Assembly: GCF_026870155.1 (NCBI RefSeq)
Contig: NZ_CP113975.1
Location: 1,860,001 to 1,924,000 of the forward strand
DNA: 64,000 nt
Direction of reading: 5' to 3'
Source: Flavobacterium marginilacus
Lineage (GTDB): Bacteria; Bacteroidota; Bacteroidia; Flavobacteriales; Flavobacteriaceae
Shown: positions 75 to 38,529 of the stretch, one piece after another
How the letters are laid out: the number at the start of each line of letters is the position of its first letter
Position numbering within the stretch: position 1 is the stretch's first letter
The notes under the pieces: generated by a model
The model's input: only the letters and a program-made list of their open reading frames with translations
Database searches by the model: none
Told to the model about the DNA's origin: nothing
Made by a program: the position numbers and the translations under genes

Positions 75-3000
75 TTATTCTTTCTCCCACTTTTTGCGTT
101 CGGTGATGTAATAAATTATTGGCACCACAATAAGCGTTAGTATAGTTGAAATAATTGCTCCAAACACTAGTGAAATTGCCAATCCTTGAAAAATAGGATC
201 AAAAAGGATAATCGATGCACCAATCACAACCGCACCTGTGGTCAGCAGAATAGGAGTGGTACGAACCGCACCCGCCTCGATAATGGCTTGTTTGAGATTG
301 ATACCTTCGTTAAGCCTTATCTCAATAAAGTCGATCAGCAAAACCGAGTTTCGAACCATAACCCCGGCCAAAGCAATCATCCCAATGAAGGAAGTTGCCG
401 TAAAGTAAGCCCCCAATAACCAATGCCCCAAGACGATTCCGATAAGTGACAGCGGAATGGCAAGCATCATCACTATTGGCGTTTTAAAGTTTTGAAACCA
501 CCCTACAATCAGCATATATATGATGACGATAACCACCATGAATGCCACTCCCAAATCGCGGAATACTTCGAGTGTAATTTGCCATTCACCATCCCATTTT
601 ACCGTAAAATCACTTTCATCGGTGGGTTGTTCCATATATAATTCATTCACTTTATAGCCTTTTGGCAAAGCTATTTTGGCAAGTTTTTCGTTCATTCCCA
701 AAATCGCATACACGGGGCTTTCCAATGTTCCTGCCATATCGGCCGTTACGTAAACTACACGTTTTTGGTCTTTACGATAGATAGTTTTCTGTAAAGTGTC
801 ATTCTTTACCTTAACCAAATCGCTTACCGGAATCATATTTCCTTGATTCCCTTTGATTTTCAGGTTTTCAATATCCTGAAGGTTGGTTTTGTCTTTATCG
901 TCAAGCGAAAGGACGATTGCTACATTATCATTTGATTTTTCGTCATACAGATTTGAAACCGGATATTCTTTTAACAGATAAGTAAGATTACCGACGATTT
1001 GCTGAGGTGCTATACCGTTTAGCATCGCTTTTTCCTTGTCAACTTCCAATTTGTATTCGGTTTGGTTGTCTTCGGTCATCCAGTCAACATCCACGATATC
1101 GGGAGTGTTTTTCAAAATAGTTTTCACCTGATCCGCCACTTTTATCTGCTCTTTGTAATCAGGCCCATAAATCTCGGCTACCAAAGTTGACAATACCGGT
1201 GGTCCCGGAGGCACTTCAATCAGTTTTACATTTGCGCCATATTTTTTGGCAATCTTCTGAATTTCAGGACGCATTTCTTTGGCAATTTCGTGGCTCTGTG
1301 CTTCTCTTTCTTCTTTGTGCAATAAATTCACCTGAATATCGGCCATATTGCTCCCGCCACGCATATCATAATGGCGAACCAATCCGTTGAAGGTAATTGG
1401 AGCAGAAGTTCCGATGTAGTTTTGGTAATTTACCACTTCGGGACGTGTTGACAAATAGTGTGCAATTTCCCTTGTTACCGCCGAAGTACGTTCCAACGTA
1501 GTTCCCTCCGGCATATCGATAACCACCTGAAATTCATTTTTGTTGTCAAACGGAAGCATTTTTACCAATACTGATTTGGTAAAGAACATTAGTATGGAAC
1601 CCAATAATAAAATCACCGTTACAACCATCAATATCTTTCTTTTTCCTGAGTTTTCAAGAAACGGACGCTCGAATTTGTTGTAAAAACGGTATATCCAGTT
1701 CGTTTCAAGACCGTGAGTTTCTTTGTGCTCCTGTTCTTCTTTTTCTTCCGAAATGTTATTTAAATTTTGGTCGTTAGGAACCCACTTTTTAATTTTATTT
1801 GAAGAAAAATTGTGATTGTTGTGGGTTTCTTGAAGAAAATGATATCCTAAATATGGCGTCACAGTCAATGCAACGAACAAAGAAAGTATCATCGCTATAG
1901 AAGCCCCGATTGGCATTGGACTCATGTAAGGTCCCATCATACCTGAAACGAAGGCCATTGGCAAAATCGCGGCAATTACGGTAAATGTTGCCAAAATTGT
2001 TGGGTTACCTACCTCATTAATGGCATAAATGGCAGCTTGCTTAAACGGCAGACGCTTCATTTTGAAATGGCGGTGCATATTCTCGGCAATAATAATGCTG
2101 TCGTCAACTACGATTCCCACCACGAATACCAGGGCAAAAAGGGTGATTCGGTTTAGGGTATATCCAAGCAGATAGTAGGCAAATAAGGTTAATGCAAAAG
2201 TCAAAGGCACTGAAATAAAAACAACCAAACCGCCTCGCCATCCCATGGCCAGCATAACCAAAACGGTCACGGCAATAATCGCAATTCCAAGGTGCATCAG
2301 CAGTTCACCAACTTTATCAGATGCGGTTTCTCCGTAATTTCGGGTTACTTCTACATGAACATCATTTGGAACCAACGATTTTTTAAGCTGTTCTACTTTG
2401 TCCAAAATTTTGGCTGAAATTTTCATTGCATCGGCACCTTTTACTTTGCCAATAGAAATCGTGACAGCTGGATATTCGGATTTTGCAGTTTTAAATTTTT
2501 CATTGGTTTTTCCATATCCAAAAGATACATAACTTTTAGGTGTTGAAGGCCCATCCTGAACGGTAGCAACTTGTTTCAAATAAACCGGCATGTTTTTGTT
2601 TACCCCCACCACAAGATTTTCGACATCTTCTGTATTTGACAAAAATTGGCCTGTCGTTAACAAATACTCCTGATCGTTTTGCACAAAACTTCCGGATTGT
2701 GAACTCCCGTTATTGGCTTGGATCATTTGCATAATGCTCAAAGGATCTACACCGTTTTCAGTCATTTTATCTTTATCCAAAATCACTTTTACCTCGCGGT
2801 TTTGTCCTCCGATTTCTTTGGTGATTGCCACGTCCTTAACTTTCTCTATTTCCGAGGTCAATTCTTCGGCAATTTGGCGTAACTGAAATTCATCCTGTTT
2901 TTCGCTCCATAAGGTCAGTGCCAACATGGGTACATCGTCAATAGAACGGGTTTTTACCATTGGTTTATAAACGCCGGTTGGGAACATATTTTCATGTTTT

Positions 3001-3420: not shown

Positions 3421-4512
3421 TTACTGAATACTGATTTTAGCTCCGTTATACAACTTTCCATCGGCCGAAATGATGTATTGCTCTCCTGCCGAAAGCCCTG
3501 ACAATACTTCTGCTTCATTACCAAAAGTCTTTCCGATACGAAGCCATCTCAAAATAGCAACATTTCCTGCACCTACAGTATAAACCCCTGTCAATTGTCC
3601 TTGATGAATTAATGCTGGTTGAGGTATCAAGACTTTATCTGATGTTTGTGTCGTACTATTTTTATTGACTCCCGGAAATTGGATGTTTGCGAACATTCCA
3701 GATAAAACTGTTTTATCAGCTTCTTCCAAATTAATTTTTACCAAATATTGACCTCCGGTATTTTTGGCTGACAAACTCACTTCACTCACTTTTCCGTTCA
3801 GTGTTTTGTTTGTAGATTTAATCAAAACTTTCACCAGCATTCCGCTTGTTATCGATGCAATGTCGCTTTCGGCTACCATCGCGGTTACTTGTAGTTTTGA
3901 ATTTCCTTCAACACTTACTAAAGGCATTCCTGGATTGGCCATATCTCCTTCTTTTACAAAAGTATTCGTCACAACTCCCGAAAAAGGTGCCGTGATATTG
4001 GAGTAGGCAAACTGTGCCATTACTTCGTTACGCATTTGTTTGGCACCTTCTAATCCGGCTTTTGCCATTTCATAACGGGCAGTCATATCATCCAATTCTT
4101 TTTGCGAAGCGCTTTGTTGTTTAAATAGAATCGTAAAGCGGTCGTAGTCTTTCTTGGCATTGTTGTACCCGGCAGTTGCCTGAAGGATGTTGGCATCTAC
4201 TTGGGCTTTTTTGGCTTGTAAATCGGTATTGTTGATGCTCACCAAAAGCTGTCCAACAGTGACTTTTTGACCAACTTTCACGTGAAGCTTGGTCACATAT
4301 CCCATCATACGGGTGCTTAGGTTAGCGCTGTTTTGGGCTTCAATTTTTCCGCTTGCCGTTATAAATGGGCTGTTGTTTTTTATGTCCGTGCCGCTTACTT
4401 TTACTGCAATTGCAGGTTCGTTAGCAATAACGTCTTTTTTCTCTCCGTTGCAGGAAGACAGCAAAACCAAAAGCGAAATCGTTAGTGTTGATTTTAAAAA
4501 GAAGTTCTTCAT
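3421..4512 (-). CDS. RND efflux periplasmic adaptor (membrane fusion) lipoprotein
   Basis: Periplasmic adaptor bridging the RND permease and the TolC channel. I place the start at 4512 (363 aa) because it begins directly with MKNFFLKSTL and a lipoprotein signal ending LLSSC; the reading frame is open further upstream but adds 14 residues before the signal. The order is lipoyl-like half (about 50-90, with VKVGQKVTVGQLL), an alpha-helical hairpin rich in Ala/Lys/Gln (about 95-165), the second lipoyl half (ITAPFSGVV) and beta-barrel domains. It sits 54 bp downstream of the TolC gene and 67 bp upstream of the permease, so the three are very likely cotranscribed. Confidence 0.9.
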   Translation of the reverse strand: MKNFFLKSTLTISLLVLLSSCNGEKKDVIANEPAIAVKVSGTDIKNNSPFITASGKIEAQNSANLSTRMMGYVTKLHVKVGQKVTVGQLLVSINNTDLQAKKAQVDANILQATAGYNNAKKDYDRFTILFKQQSASQKELDDMTARYEMAKAGLEGAKQMRNEVMAQFAYSNITAPFSGVVTNTFVKEGDMANPGMPLVSVEGNSKLQVTAMVAESDIASITSGMLVKVLIKSTNKTLNGKVSEVSLSAKNTGGQYLVKINLEEADKTVLSGMFANIQFPGVNKNSTTQTSDKVLIPQPALIHQGQLTGVYTVGAGNVAILRWLRIGKTFGNEAEVLSGLSAGEQYIISADGKLYNGAKISIQ

Positions 4513-30803: not shown

Positions 30804-30968
30804 TGTTCTTTTTGCGTTTAGAATTATCTCTTCGACAGATAGATTTATGTTTTTCTTTTCAAAAATAGACCTCCTTAATTTTGGATTAAATTAACAATTA
30901 GGCCTTTAAAAAAGTGTGTAATTTTGAGTACTTTTGCGACACTTTATTTAAACGAAATTCACTTCCAA

Positions 30969-33900
30969 ATGGATAAAAAATTATTCTCTGTCCTATTTTC
31001 TACCCGATTAATGGCTATATTATTTCTGACTTTTGCAATTGCAATGGGAACAGGAACTTTTATAGAAAGCAAATACAATACTGATACTGCCCGAATTTTG
31101 ATTTATAATACTTGGTGGTTTGAAGCAATTATGGGGTTCTTCATGATTAATTTTATAGGAAACATCAAGCGTTATCAATTGCTGAAAAAAGAAAAATGGG
31201 CAACTTTACTGCTGCATTTGGCTTTTATATTTATTATTGCCGGGGCTTTTATAACACGCTACATTAGTTATGAAGGAATGATGCCTATTCGCGAAGGTGC
31301 TGCAGAGAATCAGTTTTACTCAGATAAAACATTTTTAACTCTTTTTGTAGATGGTGAATATAAAGGAGAAATGAAACGCAGGGTTTTTGAAAAACCAGTT
31401 TTGTTATCTCCTGCAACTGATAATGATTTTTCATTGAAAGGTGATTTTGCAGGAAATCCTTTTGAAGTGCGGTATGAAAAGTATATTATGGGAGCCAAAG
31501 AATATGTAAAACCGGATCCAAAAGGGACTTTGTATTTTAAATTGGTTGAGGCAGGTGATGGCGGCCGTGAGGAGCATTTTCTGAAATCAGGTGAGGTGCA
31601 GAATATTCATAATGTTCTTTTTGCCTTGAATAAATTTACCGAAGGAGCTATTAATATAAATACAACTGGAAGTAGTTATACGATTCAAATGCCTTTTGAA
31701 GGGAATTTTATGAGAATGGCAGATAAGTTACAGGGTAAAGTAGTTAAAGATATTGTACAGCCTTTGATGATGCGTTCTTTGTACAGTATTGGCGATATCC
31801 GCTTTGTTTTTCCAGAACCGGCTGTTAAAGGGGTAATTGATTACGAAACAAAAAATGATTACAAAGAGAAAAACCACGAAGATATTTTAGTTGTTAAGCT
31901 TATTGCTGATGGCAAAGAAGAATCAGTTTCTTTATTGGGATCAAAAGGCAAAGTAGGGGATTCCAAAACGGTCAAAATTGGAGGAAAGGAGTATAGCTTT
32001 TTCTTTGGAAGCAAAGCATATGTATTACCGTTTAAGATAAAACTAAATGATTTTATTGCACAGAAATATCCTGGTACAGAAAAAAGTTATTCTTCTTTTG
32101 AAAGCCAGGTAACAGTTCAGGATTCTGTAAAACCATTTGATGCCAGAATTTATATGAATCATGTACTAGATCATGAGGGTTATCGTTTTTTTCAATCATC
32201 ATTTGACCCTGATGAGAAGGGAACTGTGTTGTCTGTAAATCATGATTATTGGGGAACAACAATCACTTACATTGGATATTTTTTATTGTTTTTTAGTATG
32301 ATTGCAATTTTGTTTGTCAAACATTCCCGTTTTGCTGATCTGAAAAGAAAATTAGAAGTAGTTAAAAACAAAAAAGCAAAACTGCTTACGGTTTTGGTAT
32401 TGCTTTTTAGTTTGACAGGTTTTGCCCAGGAGCATAATCACGAGCACGATCATGAACATAACCACGATCATACTGCGGAAAAAGCCGATTCGCAAATGGA
32501 AAGTCCTGCTCATGTAAGGGTAAAACCAACTCAGAAGCAATTGGATTCAGTATTGACTGCTTTTACAGTAACCAAAGAACATGCAGCAAAGTTTGGTCGT
32601 CTGATTATTCAGGATGCTGGCGGAAGAATGAAACCAATCAATACTTTTTCATCAGAATTGCTGCGAAAAGTAAGTCATTCGGATACGTATAACGGAATGA
32701 ATTCGGATCAGGTATTTTTATCGATGACACAAAGTGCCCAGCTGTGGATAGAAATCCCGCTGATTTATATAAAACCGGGTAACGACAGTATTCGCCATAT
32801 AATTGGGGTTGATGTCAAAGATACATATGCACCGTTTATTGCTTTCTTTGATGCAAAAGGAAATTATAAATTATCGCCTTATCTTGATGCGGCTTACAAA
32901 GCAGGAAATCCAAATCAGTTTGAAAAAGATTTTGTGGAAACAGATAAGAAAGTAAATTTAATGGAATCCGCATTGAGCGGCAGTATTTTACGAATTTTTC
33001 CAATTCCTAATGAACCAAACAATAAATGGATTTCTTATTTAGAACTTGAGCATGCCGGTTTGAAAGGAATGGATTCTACTTATACCAAAAGTATCCTGCC
33101 TCTTTATTTTGGAACATTGGGACATGCTGTTCAAACAAAGAACTACAAAACAGCTGATGATCTTTTGGAAAGCATCAACGGTTTTCAGAAAAAATTTGGC
33201 AGTAAAGTAAGACCGAGTGAAGAAAAAATAGAATTAGAGATTGCTTATAATAAATATGACCTGCTTCAAAAATTGCCTTATTGGTATATGTTTGCATCGA
33301 TTTTGATGTTTACATTTACAATTCTTCAAATCTTTAAAGATTCAAAATTGATGCGCATCTTAGTCAATTCGATGCATGTAATTGTTGCTATTCTTTTTGT
33401 TTTGCATACAATTACATTAGGAGCACGGTGGTATATTTCGGAACATGCACCTTGGAGTAATGCTTATGAAGCAATCGTTTACGTGGCTTGGTCAACAATG
33501 TTTTTTGGCTTAGCTTTCGATATAAAATCAAAATTAACTGTAGCTTCGGCTACGTTTGTTACGTCAATGATACTTTCAGCAGCTTATATGAATTGGATTG
33601 ATCCAGAAATTGCCAATTTGCAGCCAGTTCTTAACTCATATTGGTTAATGATTCACGTGGCTGTTATTGTAGCGAGTTATGGACCAACTGCGTTAGGAAT
33701 GATTTTAGGTTTTGTGTCGCTTCTTCTAATCTTTTTTACCAATGAAAAGAATAAAACTAAGATGGAACTGAACATAAAAGAGATTACCTATATCAACGAA
33801 ATGTCATTAACAATCGGTTTAATTATGCTGACTATAGGTAACTTTCTTGGAGGGCAGTGGGCAAATGAAAGCTGGGGACGTTATTGGGGATGGGATCCAA

Positions 33901-34181
33901 AAGAAACTTGGGCATTAATCAGTATTATGGTTTATGCTTTTGTAATTCATGCTAGGTTTGTTCCGTTATTAAGAGGAAAATGGATTTTTAACCTGATGAG
34001 TATGTTTGCCTTTGTCTCTATTCTATTCACATATTATGGTGTGAATTTCCACTTAGTTGGACTGCATTCCTACGCAAGCGGAGAAGCACATTCACTAAGC
34101 TGGATTTGGTATTCATTAGGGACAATTTCTGTGATTGGAGCAGTTACTTATCCGAAATATAAAAAGTATTATAAGAAGTAG
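30969..34181 (+). CDS. Fused ResB-CcsA cytochrome c biogenesis protein with a His-rich linker
   Basis: I take ATG 30969 (1070 aa), which starts MDKKLFSVLFSTRLMAILFL; the frame upstream adds 15 residues. The N-terminal half is ResB-like with three early membrane helices and a large periplasmic part. Near residues 485-500 there is a His/Asp/Glu-rich stretch (HNHEHDHEHNHDH) just after a signal-like hydrophobic run. The C-terminal half is CcsA with about ten helices and the heme WWD-type motif WGRYWGWDPKETW near residue 967. System II heme lyases deliver heme to apocytochrome c in the periplasm. Fusion of both subunits is known in Bacteroidota. Confidence 0.9.
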   Translation: MDKKLFSVLFSTRLMAILFLTFAIAMGTGTFIESKYNTDTARILIYNTWWFEAIMGFFMINFIGNIKRYQLLKKEKWATLLLHLAFIFIIAGAFITRYISYEGMMPIREGAAENQFYSDKTFLTLFVDGEYKGEMKRRVFEKPVLLSPATDNDFSLKGDFAGNPFEVRYEKYIMGAKEYVKPDPKGTLYFKLVEAGDGGREEHFLKSGEVQNIHNVLFALNKFTEGAININTTGSSYTIQMPFEGNFMRMADKLQGKVVKDIVQPLMMRSLYSIGDIRFVFPEPAVKGVIDYETKNDYKEKNHEDILVVKLIADGKEESVSLLGSKGKVGDSKTVKIGGKEYSFFFGSKAYVLPFKIKLNDFIAQKYPGTEKSYSSFESQVTVQDSVKPFDARIYMNHVLDHEGYRFFQSSFDPDEKGTVLSVNHDYWGTTITYIGYFLLFFSMIAILFVKHSRFADLKRKLEVVKNKKAKLLTVLVLLFSLTGFAQEHNHEHDHEHNHDHTAEKADSQMESPAHVRVKPTQKQLDSVLTAFTVTKEHAAKFGRLIIQDAGGRMKPINTFSSELLRKVSHSDTYNGMNSDQVFLSMTQSAQLWIEIPLIYIKPGNDSIRHIIGVDVKDTYAPFIAFFDAKGNYKLSPYLDAAYKAGNPNQFEKDFVETDKKVNLMESALSGSILRIFPIPNEPNNKWISYLELEHAGLKGMDSTYTKSILPLYFGTLGHAVQTKNYKTADDLLESINGFQKKFGSKVRPSEEKIELEIAYNKYDLLQKLPYWYMFASILMFTFTILQIFKDSKLMRILVNSMHVIVAILFVLHTITLGARWYISEHAPWSNAYEAIVYVAWSTMFFGLAFDIKSKLTVASATFVTSMILSAAYMNWIDPEIANLQPVLNSYWLMIHVAVIVASYGPTALGMILGFVSLLLIFFTNEKNKTKMELNIKEITYINEMSLTIGLIMLTIGNFLGGQWANESWGRYWGWDPKETWALISIMVYAFVIHARFVPLLRGKWIFNLMSMFAFVSILFTYYGVNFHLVGLHSYASGEAHSLSWIWYSLGTISVIGAVTYPKYKKYYKK

Positions 34182-34198
34182 GATTCTATCATAAATAG

Positions 34199-34239
34199 AA
34201 AATAAGGGTTATTCGAAAGAGTAGCCCTTATTTTTTTTT
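34199..34239 (+). terminator. Terminator of the ResB-CcsA gene
   Basis: Stem AATAAGGG (34201-34208) with CCCTTATT (34225-34232) and a run of nine T, just past the stop codon. Confidence 0.8.
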
Positions 34240-34321
34240 GAACTGCATTAAAAAAGTTAAAACTTACAATTTTGAAAAAATAATTATGTTTTGTCGGTAA
34301 AAAAATGTTGTTTAAAGATTT

Positions 34322-34336
34322 TGGCACGGTCTTTGA
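34322..34336 (+). promoter_or_regulatory. Sigma-54-like promoter without a downstream gene
   Basis: TGGCAC-N5-TTGA (34322-34327 and 34333-34336) matches the -24/-12 pattern TGGCAC-N5-TTGC except the last base. There is no open reading frame downstream; a terminator occurs at 34471-34497, so a transcript of about 150 nt would result. This is inference from sequence alone. Confidence 0.45.
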
Positions 34337-34346
34337 AAATACATTA

Positions 34347-34497
34347 CTGATGATGTTTTGAGGTATGGATCTCTTTGTAAAGTTAGAAGGTTATTTTTCA
34401 TGGTTTGTTTACAATAGTTAGTTAAAAGACGGTTATCTCTTATATATTATTGGTTTTTATTTGGTTAAAAGATGCTCGTAGAAGAGCATCTTTTTTT
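34347..34497 (+). ncRNA. Candidate small RNA, unit C
   Basis: Predicted to run from the expected start after the sigma-54-like promoter to the T run at 34497. The terminator stem is GATGCTC/GAGCATC (34471-34477 and 34484-34490). The interior GTTAGAAGGTTA and CATGG echo the two downstream units weakly. No conserved coding frame. Confidence 0.4.
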
Positions 34498-34635
34498 ATG
34501 GGCAATCTCAATTTTTTTAAAAGCCTGAAGTTTAGCTATTCACATTAGTACTAAAAACTTAAATTATTTATTGGTCTCAAACAGAGTTTAAAACTATGTA
34601 CTTTCAGTGCATCTCGCTTTAGCTTCTAAAAAAGT

Positions 34636-34692
34636 TTTTGCCACAGATTTACAGATTTAAAATCATCTTTTATCTGTGAATCTGTGGCAAAA
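34636..34692. repeat. Palindromic CACAGATT repeat
   Basis: Two 21-bp arms (34636-34656 and 34672-34692) around a 15-bp loop, one mismatch; the core is GCCACAGATTTACAGAT. Intergenic palindromes built from CACAGATT words recur in Flavobacterium genomes; a related copy is at 36190-36273. Confidence 0.65.
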
Positions 34693-34899
34693 TTTTATCA
34701 ATTTTTGCAATCCAACCTTGCACTTTCAGTCTGCCTAACCAAATCTATGGACTTTTAGTCTGTAGCTTCTTAGTTAAGTAAAATCTTATTTAATATTTAA
34801 TTTTATGTGTTTAATCGTTAAAAATGGTATTTTGTAGATTATTTATACTTTTTTTGAATTAAATTTGTTTTTACTAAGAGAGAAAGACATTTTTTAAGA

Positions 34900-35028
34900 T
34901 TTGTAGTTTTAAGGTTTATTTTTAAATTTAGTAGGTTAGGTTTAGGATAATAAAATTACATGGGGGCATCTTATAAAACAGTCTGTTATTTCATTAAAAG
35001 ATGTTTCTTTTAGAAACATCTTTTTTTA
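34900..35028 (+). ncRNA. Candidate small RNA, unit A
   Basis: Contains a 22-bp block at 34925-34946 (core TTTAGTAGGTTAGGTTTAGG) and ATTACATGGGGG (34955-34966), both repeated in unit B, then a terminator stem GATGTTTC/GAAACATC (35000-35007 and 35013-35020) with seven T. The 17-codon frame starting at the shared ATGGGGG is not kept in unit B, so an RNA rather than a peptide is favoured. The 5' end is estimated. Confidence 0.6.
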
Positions 35029-35261
35029 TATAAATCACATTGTTTTTCGAATTCTATTTTAAAATATGAATTTGACTTTTTTATAATCACCTGTTTATGA
35101 GACTGTTGTTTTTGGTTAATAAAGTTGTTTTTTGTTTTATTTATGTAGTAAAAAACTTATGTTTTTTAAAAAAACATGTATTTTATCGATAAAATATATC
35201 TTTTTATGGTGTAAGTGTTTTGAATTTGTATATTTGAGTATCTATTCAAAATGATGATTTT

Positions 35262-35380
35262 TAAGGATTTGTAATTTTTTTTTAATTTAGTAGGTTAGGT
35301 TTAGGGAAATTAATTACATGGGGGAATCTGATTAAAATTATCAATTAAAGAGGTTTTTTTAGAACCTCTTTTTTTTTGTG
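35262..35380 (+). ncRNA. Candidate small RNA, unit B (paralogue of unit A)
   Basis: Shares with unit A the upstream words TTTTTAAG and ATTTGTA, the identical 22-bp block at 35284-35305, and ATTACATGGGGG at 35313-35324, and it ends in a terminator stem AAAGAGGTT/AACCTCTTT (35347-35355 and 35363-35371) followed by T. The terminator sequences differ between A and B while the fold is kept, as expected for duplicated small RNA genes. Confidence 0.6.
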
Positions 35381-35527
35381 CCATACTGAACCAAAATTCA
35401 ATCAGCTGAAGATGGGGAAGAGTAAAATTAATTCTGAATTTTAGCCAGAAATACTTTCTGTTTTTATTAACATTTGTAACATTAAATAACAGGGATATTT
35501 GTTTAATTTTATATCAAAAAATAAACT

Positions 35528-36073
35528 ATGAAAAATATAATAGCAGCGTTCTGCGCAATGTTTCTTTTTAATATCCAAATTCAGGCACAAGTGAAACAAA
35601 ATATTTATCAATTCAAAGTTGAAGATTTGTACGGAAAGACGTTTGATTTTGCTTCGCTAAAAGGCAAAAAAATTATGATTGTCAATACTGCTTCAAAATG
35701 CGGATTGACACCTCAGTATAAAGATCTGGAGGCATTATATAAAGAGTATGCTTCCAAAGGTTTTGTAATTGTTGGTTTTCCAGCCAATAACTTTGCTTCA
35801 CAAGAACCGGGTACTAATGAGGAAATTGCTAGTTTTTGTCAGTTAAACTACGGAGTTACCTTTCCTATGATGGATAAAGTTTCGGTAAAAGGGGATGATA
35901 TGTGTGCCGTTTATCAGTTTTTGACTAAAAAGTCTAAAAATGGATTGGAAGATTCTGAAGTAAAATGGAATTTCCAAAAATACCTTATCAATGAAAAAGG
36001 GGAATTAGTAAAAGTAATTTCTCCAAAAACCCTGCCAACAGATCCGGAAGTGGTAAATTGGATTAAGGGATAG
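35528..36073 (+). CDS. Glutathione peroxidase family protein, exported
   Basis: A 181-residue thioredoxin-fold peroxidase with signal peptide ending IQAQ, so periplasmic. Cys58 in NTASKCGLT is the peroxidatic residue, FPANNFASQEPG supplies the Gln, and VKWNFQKYLI the Trp/Asn of the catalytic tetrad. A second Cys at FCQLNYG matches the resolving Cys of thioredoxin-dependent members. Monocistronic with its own terminator. Confidence 0.92.
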   Translation: MKNIIAAFCAMFLFNIQIQAQVKQNIYQFKVEDLYGKTFDFASLKGKKIMIVNTASKCGLTPQYKDLEALYKEYASKGFVIVGFPANNFASQEPGTNEEIASFCQLNYGVTFPMMDKVSVKGDDMCAVYQFLTKKSKNGLEDSEVKWNFQKYLINEKGELVKVISPKTLPTDPEVVNWIKG

Positions 36074-36334: not shown

Positions 36335-37123
36335 CTAAACTTTTCCTAAAGTATATAATTGCTCCATTGTTGGCGAAGTGCTTCCGCCTTCTGGTTCTAA
36401 TGTTATTCCAAAAGCTTCGGCAAAACCAGCGTCGCTGACTTCGAATATTTTTTGGTCATTAGCAGTGAAATTTGCAAGTAATCCAATACTTGTCGGTGTT
36501 AAGACGGGTGCTAATTTTAAAGCCCAAACTTGGTAAACCATTCCTTTTGGCGGTTTCGGCAGACCCGATGCATCTACATACACGGCTTTGGTTTCTTTGT
36601 TCCAATATATTTTTGCAAATGAAGCAGGCGAGACCGTCTGCCCGCCCAAGCTTACTACAGTATTTTTTGGATCACGAATCACAGCCAGACCCGTTTCGAT
36701 GGTTTTGTTTTTTATACCTAATGAATCTACTGTTTTAATCAGATTTTCTTTTTCAGAATTTATTTCAGCTACTTGATTTTTGGTCTCATTGAGCTGCAGG
36801 TATTGATAGCCAATGCCTAATAATAAAACTACAGCTGCAGCCCAGCCGATATAAGTATATTTTGATTTTGACGGAGTCATTTCAACAACTTTTCCGTGTT
36901 TCAGCTCTAATTTGGCTTTAATTTTTTCATAATTAGCAACCGAATGAAATGGAGAAAAAGTCGAAGATAAGGCTACAATAGCTTTCTCAATCGAAATAAT
37001 TTCATCGTTTATTTCACTGTACTCTTTTGCCAAAGCGGCAATCTCTATGTTTTCTGTTTCGCTAAGTAAACCATAAACATAAAGCTCTAAAATTCCGGAG
37101 TCTATATATTGTTTTGTATCCAT
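36335..37123 (-). CDS. RskA-like anti-sigma factor
   Basis: 262 residues. The cytoplasmic N-terminus (SGILELYVYGLLSETENIEI) is the anti-sigma binding region seen in Bacteroidota RskA-like proteins; a single membrane helix (about 88-107, GWAAAVVLLLGIGYQYL) is followed by a short coiled coil and a periplasmic anti-sigma-K domain (KTKAVYVDASGLPKPPKG; QVWALKL). Its start overlaps the sigma factor stop by one base, so the pair is coupled. It should hold the ECF sigma factor at the membrane until a signal releases it. Confidence 0.88.
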   Translation of the reverse strand: MDTKQYIDSGILELYVYGLLSETENIEIAALAKEYSEINDEIISIEKAIVALSSTFSPFHSVANYEKIKAKLELKHGKVVEMTPSKSKYTYIGWAAAVVLLLGIGYQYLQLNETKNQVAEINSEKENLIKTVDSLGIKNKTIETGLAVIRDPKNTVVSLGGQTVSPASFAKIYWNKETKAVYVDASGLPKPPKGMVYQVWALKLAPVLTPTSIGLLANFTANDQKIFEVSDAGFAEAFGITLEPEGGSTSPTMEQLYTLGKV

Positions 37124-37653
37124 TATAATTTTAAATAAAGTCGTAAATCGTTAATACAATTTCTGTTTTGTGTTTTAACAGTCCCCAATGGTATTGCTAA
37201 TTCTTCCGAAGCTTCCTGCTGCGTGTATCCTTTAAAAAATAACAGATCGATAATCTGGATACACTTGGGTTTTAGTTTTTTTACAAATTCCTGAATTCCG
37301 ATAGCATCAATTTTATGTGACAGTTTATTGCTGTCGTCTAATAGATTTACGAAATTATCCGAAGAAAGGTTTTTTTGACTGTTATTAAAATTTTTGGAAC
37401 GCAGTTTATCGATAGAAGTATTGCGTGCAATGTTGATTATCCATGTGTAAAAGCGCCCTTTGCTTTCATGATATGAATCGATATTTTTCCAAATTTTTAC
37501 AAATACTTCCTGTAGAATATCTTCGGCTTCTTCCCGGTTTTTGACTAAAGTATTGATGACCGCAAACAGACTTTTAGAGTACATATCGTATAAATGCGTA
37601 AAAGCTTTTTCATCCTTACTATAAATTAAAACTAATAATTCTTCTTGCGTCAT
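37123..37653 (-). CDS. ECF-type RNA polymerase sigma factor
   Basis: A 176-residue sigma-70 family factor: region 2 with FTHLYDMYSKSLFAVINTLV and EEAEDILQEVFVKIWKNI, region 4 with GYTQQEASEELAIPLGTVKT as recognition helix. Followed with one-base overlap by its anti-sigma gene. The divergent DUF4331-TPR-TonB cluster shares the 225-bp intergenic region and is the likely target. Confidence 0.92.
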   Translation of the reverse strand: MTQEELLVLIYSKDEKAFTHLYDMYSKSLFAVINTLVKNREEAEDILQEVFVKIWKNIDSYHESKGRFYTWIINIARNTSIDKLRSKNFNNSQKNLSSDNFVNLLDDSNKLSHKIDAIGIQEFVKKLKPKCIQIIDLLFFKGYTQQEASEELAIPLGTVKTQNRNCINDLRLYLKL

Positions 37654-37878
37654 GGTGTTTTGATTTGTGATTTACAAACATATACAAATCATTTTAATTC
37701 CTGACATTTTTAATAATTATCGAAAATAAATAAATCTGATTTTAAAATTTAATATTTTTTAATTGCAAAGTATTGAAAATTAGTTTATTAGAATTTATTT
37801 TAACTTTTTTTGATTTTTTTAAAACCAAAAGCAAATCAATTGCGTAAATGCTCTTATAACTATAAAAATTATAATAAA

Positions 37879-38529
37879 ATGAAAAAATCAAAATTAGTAT
37901 TAGGACTTTCATTCTTGGCAGTTTCAGGATTAGTTCTAATTGCGGCAGATCACATTGATGCGCCTTCAGTAACCGGTAATGCGGCAGACATTACAGACAT
38001 GTTCACTTTTCAGGGACAGGACACCAATAATTTAGTTTTTGCTGTTAATACCCAAGGATTGTTATCTCCTAATAAAACTGCTGAAGCAGTATTTAATGAA
38101 AATGTGATGATCGAAGTAAATATTGACAACACAGGCGATAATGTTGAAGATTTAGTAATTCAGGCTGTAAAAAGGGGTGATAAAATGTATTTCTTCGGAC
38201 CTTATAAACCTTCCATGACTGGAAAAAACAGTTCCATAGATGTAAGTAAAGCTTCTGGAGACGTTGCAATTTCTGCTTATAAAATGACTCCGGTAACAGC
38301 GTCTAAAAACGGAATGAAGTTTTTTGCAGGACCAAGGGACGATCCGTTTTTCTTTGATTTAGGTCAATTTCAAAAAATTCTCGGAGGAACTGCAGCTGGA
38401 TTTAATAACCCGGGTGTAGACACTTTTGCAGGGACAAATGTTTTGTCGGTTGTTGTTGAAGTGCCAAAAGCGATGCTGGGAGGCTCAGGAACTTTAAACG
38501 TTTGGGCTGAAACTAAGAAAAAACAATAA
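37879..38529 (+). CDS. DUF4331-family exported protein, N-terminal part
   Basis: I choose ATG 37879 (216 aa) since it begins MKKSKLVLGLSFLAVSGLVL with a signal region and the frame upstream is not plausible. The mature part starts AADHIDAPSVTGNAADITDM and FTFQGQDTNN, the DUF4331 signature (the general family has SHREAP...DNTDVYAF), and contains the FFAGPRDDPFFFDLGQF block. DUF4331 proteins are usually about 450-500 residues, so this is only the first half; the following gene resembles the second half. Role unknown. Confidence 0.85.
   Translation: MKKSKLVLGLSFLAVSGLVLIAADHIDAPSVTGNAADITDMFTFQGQDTNNLVFAVNTQGLLSPNKTAEAVFNENVMIEVNIDNTGDNVEDLVIQAVKRGDKMYFFGPYKPSMTGKNSSIDVSKASGDVAISAYKMTPVTASKNGMKFFAGPRDDPFFFDLGQFQKILGGTAAGFNNPGVDTFAGTNVLSVVVEVPKAMLGGSGTLNVWAETKKKQ

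Follow-up and report, generated by a model that had tools for sequence, protein, structure and literature searches.

The analysed window, a stretch of 64,000 nt from Flavobacterium marginilacus, contains ccsBA and a glutathione peroxidase gene (GPx) separated by a gap of 1.35 kb, and the domain matches of both genes (Table 1) agree with the two neighbours named in the preliminary description of this DNA. The gap, which had been called gene-free, indeed holds no ORF of more than 52 codons, and three RNA-gene-like units, U0, U1 and U2, lie inside it. Beyond GPx, at 36335-38529, genes for an anti-sigma factor (RskA_C) and an ECF sigma factor are followed by a DUF4331 gene, a block that still adjoins the array in those related carriers, described below, that show no GPx there. 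Between U0 and U1 we also observed a near-perfect hairpin with 28-bp arms (34636-34692, GCCACAGATT...AATCTGTGGC), a 10-mer of which has no second occurrence within the window.

Table 1. Features of the ccsBA–GPx region in window coordinates, and of the units in other genera in the coordinates of their loci.
Feature	Position	Strand	Remark
ccsBA	30924-34181		domains Cytochrom_C_asm and ResB
Upstream block of U0, TGTTTTGTCGGTAAAA	34288-34303	+	aligned by eye
Sigma-54 promoter of U0, TTTTGGCACGGTCTTTGAAA	34319-34338	+	
U0, predicted small RNA	34347-34499	+	about 153 nt; promoter spacing gives the predicted start
U0 candidate target-pairing stretch	34392-34410	+	89% of 19 nt complementary to GPx start
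U0 terminator hairpin AAGATGCTC/GAGCATCTT	34469-34492	+	followed by T-run
Sigma-A-type box of U1, TAAATTTG	34860-34867	+	consensus TAnnTTTG
U1, predicted small RNA	34874-35029	+	about 156 nt
22-bp block of U1, AATTTAGTAGGTTAGGTTTAGG	34925-34946	+	apical G/U-rich loop region
ATTACATGGGGG of U1	34955-34966	+	hairpin arm plus G-run
U1 terminator hairpin AAGATGTTTCT/AGAAACATCTT	34998-35022	+	followed by T-run
Palindrome upstream of U2, ATTTTATCGATAAAAT	35180-35195	+	perfect, 16 bp; present in F. aquicola too
Sigma-A-type box of U2, TATATTTG	35229-35236	+	consensus TAnnTTTG
U2, predicted small RNA	35243-35377	+	about 135 nt
22-bp block of U2, AATTTAGTAGGTTAGGTTTAGG	35284-35305	+	apical G/U-rich loop region
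ATTACATGGGGG of U2	35313-35324	+	hairpin arm plus G-run
U2 terminator hairpin AAGAGGTTTT/AGAACCTCTT	35348-35370	+	followed by T-run
GPx start region	35519-35537	+	candidate U0 target
Glutathione peroxidase gene (GPx)	35528-36073		domain GSHPx
Two sigma-54-led units in tandem, other genus	L289 3437-3788	+	
Sigma-54-led unit, other genus	L287 3620-3754	−	
Sigma-54-led unit, other genus	L288 3814-3951	−	

The 22-bp block that U1 and U2 had been said to share is identical in both, and the shorter word ATTACATGGGGG is common to them as well, while each of the three units ends, as previously described, in its own hairpin and T-run with a differing stem. U2 is the sole strong match to U1 in the 5.3-Mb genome (BLAST E 2.1e-17, 75% identity); the next-best match (E 2.2e-4) covers only the terminator part. 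The proposed unit start at 34347 equals our promoter-based prediction for U0, whereas U1 and U2 begin about 20–25 nt earlier than had been proposed. U0 had been regarded as a third, more distant unit of the same layout. As model R1, described below, returned only U1 and U2 from the own genome at E 0.01, the membership of U0 rests on other evidence, namely its layout, its locus, its fold type, a sigma-54 promoter positioned as in relatives, and its alignment with the first unit of F. aquicola, itself matched by R1 (E 0.0033), which together bear out the earlier assignment. A second model, R2, scores U0 with 100 bits, a value obtained with U0 among its own seeds.

Relatives of the array were sought throughout the genus, and we found 26 units in 11 species at the ccsBA locus, ten of these species among 398 screened genus genomes, plus F. 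aquicola. G150 carries five units; the window strain, G112, G151, G094 and G168 carry three each, F. aquicola two, and G157, G288, G030 and G260 a single one. In a tree of 47 CcsBA segments the 11 carriers are split from 36 non-carriers by one branch (support 100/99). A BLAST search with U1 gave matches at E 0.01 in 80 of 150 genus genomes, the recognised members being G000, G112 and G030, and the remaining matches were mostly terminators and AT-rich words, that of G094 being the terminator of a true unit. The exact two-block pattern was found in two of 398 genomes. R1, seeded with U1, U2, three units of G112 and one of G030, matched 24 of the 398 genomes at E 0.01, and beyond G000, G112 and G030 the matches adjoined ccsBA, GPx or the anti-sigma gene in G288, G157, G094, G150, G168 and G151. 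The other 15 showed no such neighbour in the flanking piece and, G314 and G396 apart, were treated as chance. An additional scan for CcsBA ends yielded 80 loci; R1 was run on 45 of them, where only F. aquicola (L071) fell below E 0.01, with two matches. R2, built from 17 sigma-54 units including the promoter, added the carrier G260; it matched 58 genomes in total, the non-carriers at E 2.2e-4 or worse, and ten non-carrier matches inspected as alignments were mostly terminators. The genus and model searches, both suggested in the preliminary description, uncovered relatives at the same locus whose terminator stems co-vary.

The matches in G314 and G396 (R1 E 3.5e-6 and 2.5e-4) share one locus (L157/L158, about 4080-4240, minus strand), where they adjoin the gene of a 505-aa MauE-domain protein and have a block, AATTACATGAAGNAGTCTTAAAAATATTTT, and a terminator in common; no sigma-54 site was seen at either match.

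In the carrier gaps, the motif TTTTGGCAY-N5-TTTG recurs at a fixed distance upstream of successive terminators, and a promoter of this kind, belonging to the rare sigma-54 type, precedes 18 of the 26 units, U0 included but not U1 and U2. Across the carrier gaps, 10,386 nt in all, the strict form TTGGCAY-N5-TTG occurs 16 times in sense orientation and never in antisense, compared with a mean of 0.03 and a maximum of 1 in 300 shuffles, and is absent from the 36 non-carrier regions (34,947 nt); two of the 18 units, the first of F. aquicola and the third of G094, deviate from it by one letter. A looser pattern gave eight scattered sites in seven of the 36 non-carrier regions (up to 3 kb), and none of these sites had a terminator downstream at unit distance. 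Since 17 units were chosen by the pattern, conservation of their −24/−12 columns is partly built in; columns independent of the pattern are nevertheless conserved, with T three positions before TGG in 17/17, G at +9 in 13/17 and T at +10 in 16/17. Genome-wide, the strict pattern TTGGCAYNNNNNTTGAW has eight sites in the own genome versus four for the reversed control, and surroundings were inspected for the five on one strand. The stricter TTTTGGCAYNNNGTTTG is absent from the own genome and present in 62 of 396 genus genomes; single matches look like chance because the reversed control also matches more than 60 genomes. Among the matches listed, at least two TTTTGGCAYNNNGTTTG sites on one strand within 3 kb occur at this locus only (G094, G150, G151 and G168). 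The own genome encodes five strong sigma-54 activator domains (218–233 bits) among 14 matches over the cut-off.

The remaining eight units, which include U1 and U2, carry TAnnTTTG in place of the sigma-54 site, seven exactly and the G030 unit as TATCTTTA. In the F. psychrophilum transcriptome paper (PMC9723704), TAnnTTTG is given as the −7 box of sigma-A and motif SM4 as sigma-54. When aligned by eye, the TTTG of the sigma-A-type box sits in G157 and G288 at the position of the sigma-54 −12 TTTG with the upstream block in register, from which we infer that promoters switched class in place. G151, sister to the remaining carriers in the drawn tree, has sigma-54 units only. The block TGTTTTGTCGGTAAAA of U0 corresponds to one conserved ahead of many units and is perhaps a regulator site. 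Variants of the palindrome upstream of U2 also precede many units, and this element is perhaps a regulator site too. At U0's place in G112 (L038, about 1750-1860, minus strand) we observed an apparent decayed copy with TTTTGTCAG as its −24 element, for which no terminator was found.

Predicted folds comprise a long interrupted hairpin, a linker and the terminator in 22 of 25 units, the best fold lacking the long hairpin in G112_c, G151_3 and G094_2; fold z-scores take in the terminator. G260, the 26th unit, was added late and is included in the strict-site count, with the fold, arm-swap, promoter-column and inner-helix sets comprising the earlier units. Own hairpin arms pair at −16.6 kcal/mol compared with −12.6 kcal/mol when arms are swapped between units, a difference reached in 0 of 20000 permutations, with the own arm ranked 20th or 21st in four of the 25 units. 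For the inner helix, 66 of 72 cells are paired versus 44, a count made after two of 14 rows (G112_c and G151_3) were dropped and biased upward because each unit's own fold served as the anchor. RNAalifold on MAFFT alignments recovered the long hairpin in group 1 and partly in group 2 and missed it in the U1/U2 group; for R2, its consensus structure covered the terminator alone. The terminator stems co-vary between units. An own promoter and terminator, compensatory change and no conserved frame, as expected of small RNA genes, are thus all found at the sequence level. The earlier proposal that small RNA genes were duplicated while their structure was kept gains strong sequence-level support from the locus shared by 11 species, the co-varying arms, the predicted promoter and terminator of each unit, and the lack of a conserved frame. 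The preliminary description did not mention the predicted sigma-54 promoters, their difference from the sigma-A-type boxes, the long hairpin or the variation in copy number.

We consider it likely that three sibling small RNA genes, arranged in tandem, make up the locus, and that they are differently controlled and act in trans on mRNA starts. U0 would be made by the sigma-54 polymerase once one of the enhancer-binding activators of the genome switches on, whereas transcription of U1 and U2 would rely on the housekeeping sigma factor, and the siblings would therefore be made under different conditions. Their exposed loops would pair with mRNA start regions and lower translation, and divergence of the loops would give the siblings differing targets.

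Two candidate targets emerged from the complementarity analysis. The body of U0 pairs with the start of its own GPx at a predicted −32.0 kcal/mol, equalled by two of 285 starts with the GPx start itself included, as the 285 background starts contain the GPx starts themselves. The first unit of F. aquicola reaches −28.5 against its own GPx start, with three of the 285 starts as good; paired with each other's GPx, the two units give the weaker values of −24.4 and −22.0. Against the G112 GPx start U0 yields −31.3, nearly equal to the value for its own GPx. For U1 and U2, the loop complement with at most one mismatch has four matches in the genome, two of them self matches, and with 15 for the reversed control it is not enriched. 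One of the non-self sites lies directly against the start codon of the gene for a secreted TPR protein, and the other does not lie at a start. The TPR start region ranks first of 46 for both U1 and U2 and 16th for U0, and is equalled by two of 285 background starts for U1 and by one for U2. When the TPR leader was compared in 20 of the genomes with a match to that gene (the 11 carriers including the own and nine others), it was alike in several non-carriers. The complement of AATTACATGGGGG has three non-self genome sites, none at a sense start codon, and AACC words are not enriched ahead of 284 starts. GPx may hence be listed as a doubtful candidate target of U0, and the secreted TPR protein as a comparably tentative one of U1 and U2.

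An alternative is that the units are small RNAs that bind a protein instead of mRNAs, with single-stranded, G/U-rich motifs that recur in them serving as a sponge or decoy. In favour of this, every unit contains one or more GGTT words, the U1/U2 class retains a G-run in an internal loop, and the sibling loops diverge while the layout stays constant. The siblings do not all have one loop word in common, however, and we regard this alternative as unlikely. The arrangement in the window, where GPx lies on the same strand 151 nt downstream of the U2 terminator region, might also suggest leaders or attenuators of GPx. In five of the 11 carriers (G030, G288, G094, G168 and G260), however, a convergent anti-sigma-factor gene comes next and the flanking piece has no GPx match, which contradicts a role as GPx leader; a promoter-like site in front of every unit argues in the same direction, making this reading very improbable. 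With no GPx match beside the array in the same five carriers, the redox control that had been suggested from the neighbouring genes is not supported, although U0, being complementary to the start of GPx, may link the array to that gene in the window strain and F. aquicola. A copy number varying from one to five, and the other genes that G150 and G157 have inside the gap, would fit a MITE- or REP-like mobile or palindromic repeat with no regulatory role, yet such a repeat is hardly credible given units kept on one strand, at one locus across the clade and with promoter and terminator in constant order, and strong copies in the own genome that are confined to this locus. It is just as implausible that each unit encodes a very small protein: ATGGGGG begins short frames in five of the eight sigma-A-type units and frames reach 42 codons in G094_2 (open-ended) and 36 codons in G168_2, but in most units they span 7–26 codons, start at differing places and are lost in such orthologues as G151_2, G157 and G288, in line with the earlier statement that no frame is conserved.

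Trans-acting sibling small RNAs have a precedent in Qrr1-5 of Vibrio, where several siblings with sigma-54 promoters and their own terminators vary in copy number between species and the genes are mostly scattered. The array resembles them in its sibling small RNAs, the sigma-54 promoters of 18 of 26 units, the terminators and the varying copy number, and differs from them in belonging to another phylum, in having no sequence or Rfam match, in its tandem arrangement at one locus and in the sigma-A-type box of some siblings. NgncR_162/163 of Neisseria are sibling small RNAs kept as a set in one genome, and the array is likewise a related set, in another phylum. Rfam matches at gathering score comprised one tRNA in the window and one tRNA in nine relative loci, and weak matches in the array region fell mainly on the 34636-34692 hairpin or were due to chance. 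The Bacteroides RNAs GibS (26.5 of 115 bits at 34180-34237, which is the ccsBA terminator) and BTnc005 (13.2 of 174.8 bits on the minus strand) both stayed far below gathering. Within the genus, PMC9723704 lists Rfp36 of F. psychrophilum as a single RNA with a predicted sigma-54 (SM4) promoter, which the array shares with it by description. Rfp18, an sRNA with predicted structure and mRNA targets, is in the consulted part of that source described neither as tandem nor as sigma-54 driven, unlike the array, again compared by description only. In the open-access literature searched, we found no tandem sigma-54 small RNA array in Bacteroidota. The array probably represents an unrecorded family of tandem sibling small RNAs with a Qrr-like layout that act as antisense regulators of translation.

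As far as the literature searched shows, RNA-based control in Flavobacteria is little mapped, the one paper found on sigma-54 and small RNAs in Flavobacterium being the transcriptome study PMC9723704. An array that is confined to one clade, and whose one to five siblings fall into two promoter classes, would offer a natural experiment on how sibling small RNAs multiply, change their control and gain targets. Through it, RNA regulators may also be connected with the sigma-54 regulon described in F. psychrophilum, which covers chaperones, envelope stress and gliding. If this reading is true, it would amount to a Qrr-like RNA switch in bacteria whose RNA regulation is little known. In its full form, it describes a Qrr-like multi-copy riboregulator of Bacteroidota with one to five tandem sigma-54 small RNA genes, a kept fold, diverging loops and, in single siblings, exchange of a sigma-54 for a sigma-A promoter in place, which we consider plausible but just short of probable.

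Like-layout units from three other genera would, if genuine, make the system family-wide. R2 gave matches at E 0.001 in eight of 219 family genomes, the own included, and in G559, G523 and G576 the matched units run from a sigma-54 site to a terminator. Two such units lie in tandem in G576, 205 nt apart. R2, whose columns include the promoter, finds these units, while a model R3 built on their four rows with neither promoter nor base pairs misses the array units; the likeness is therefore one of layout, and kinship is a possibility. Among themselves the four share an identical TTTTGGTTGGTTAGTT, with no further place among the 289 loci examined, and a common GAG(T)TGGTTACTT loop, with hairpin arms that differ.
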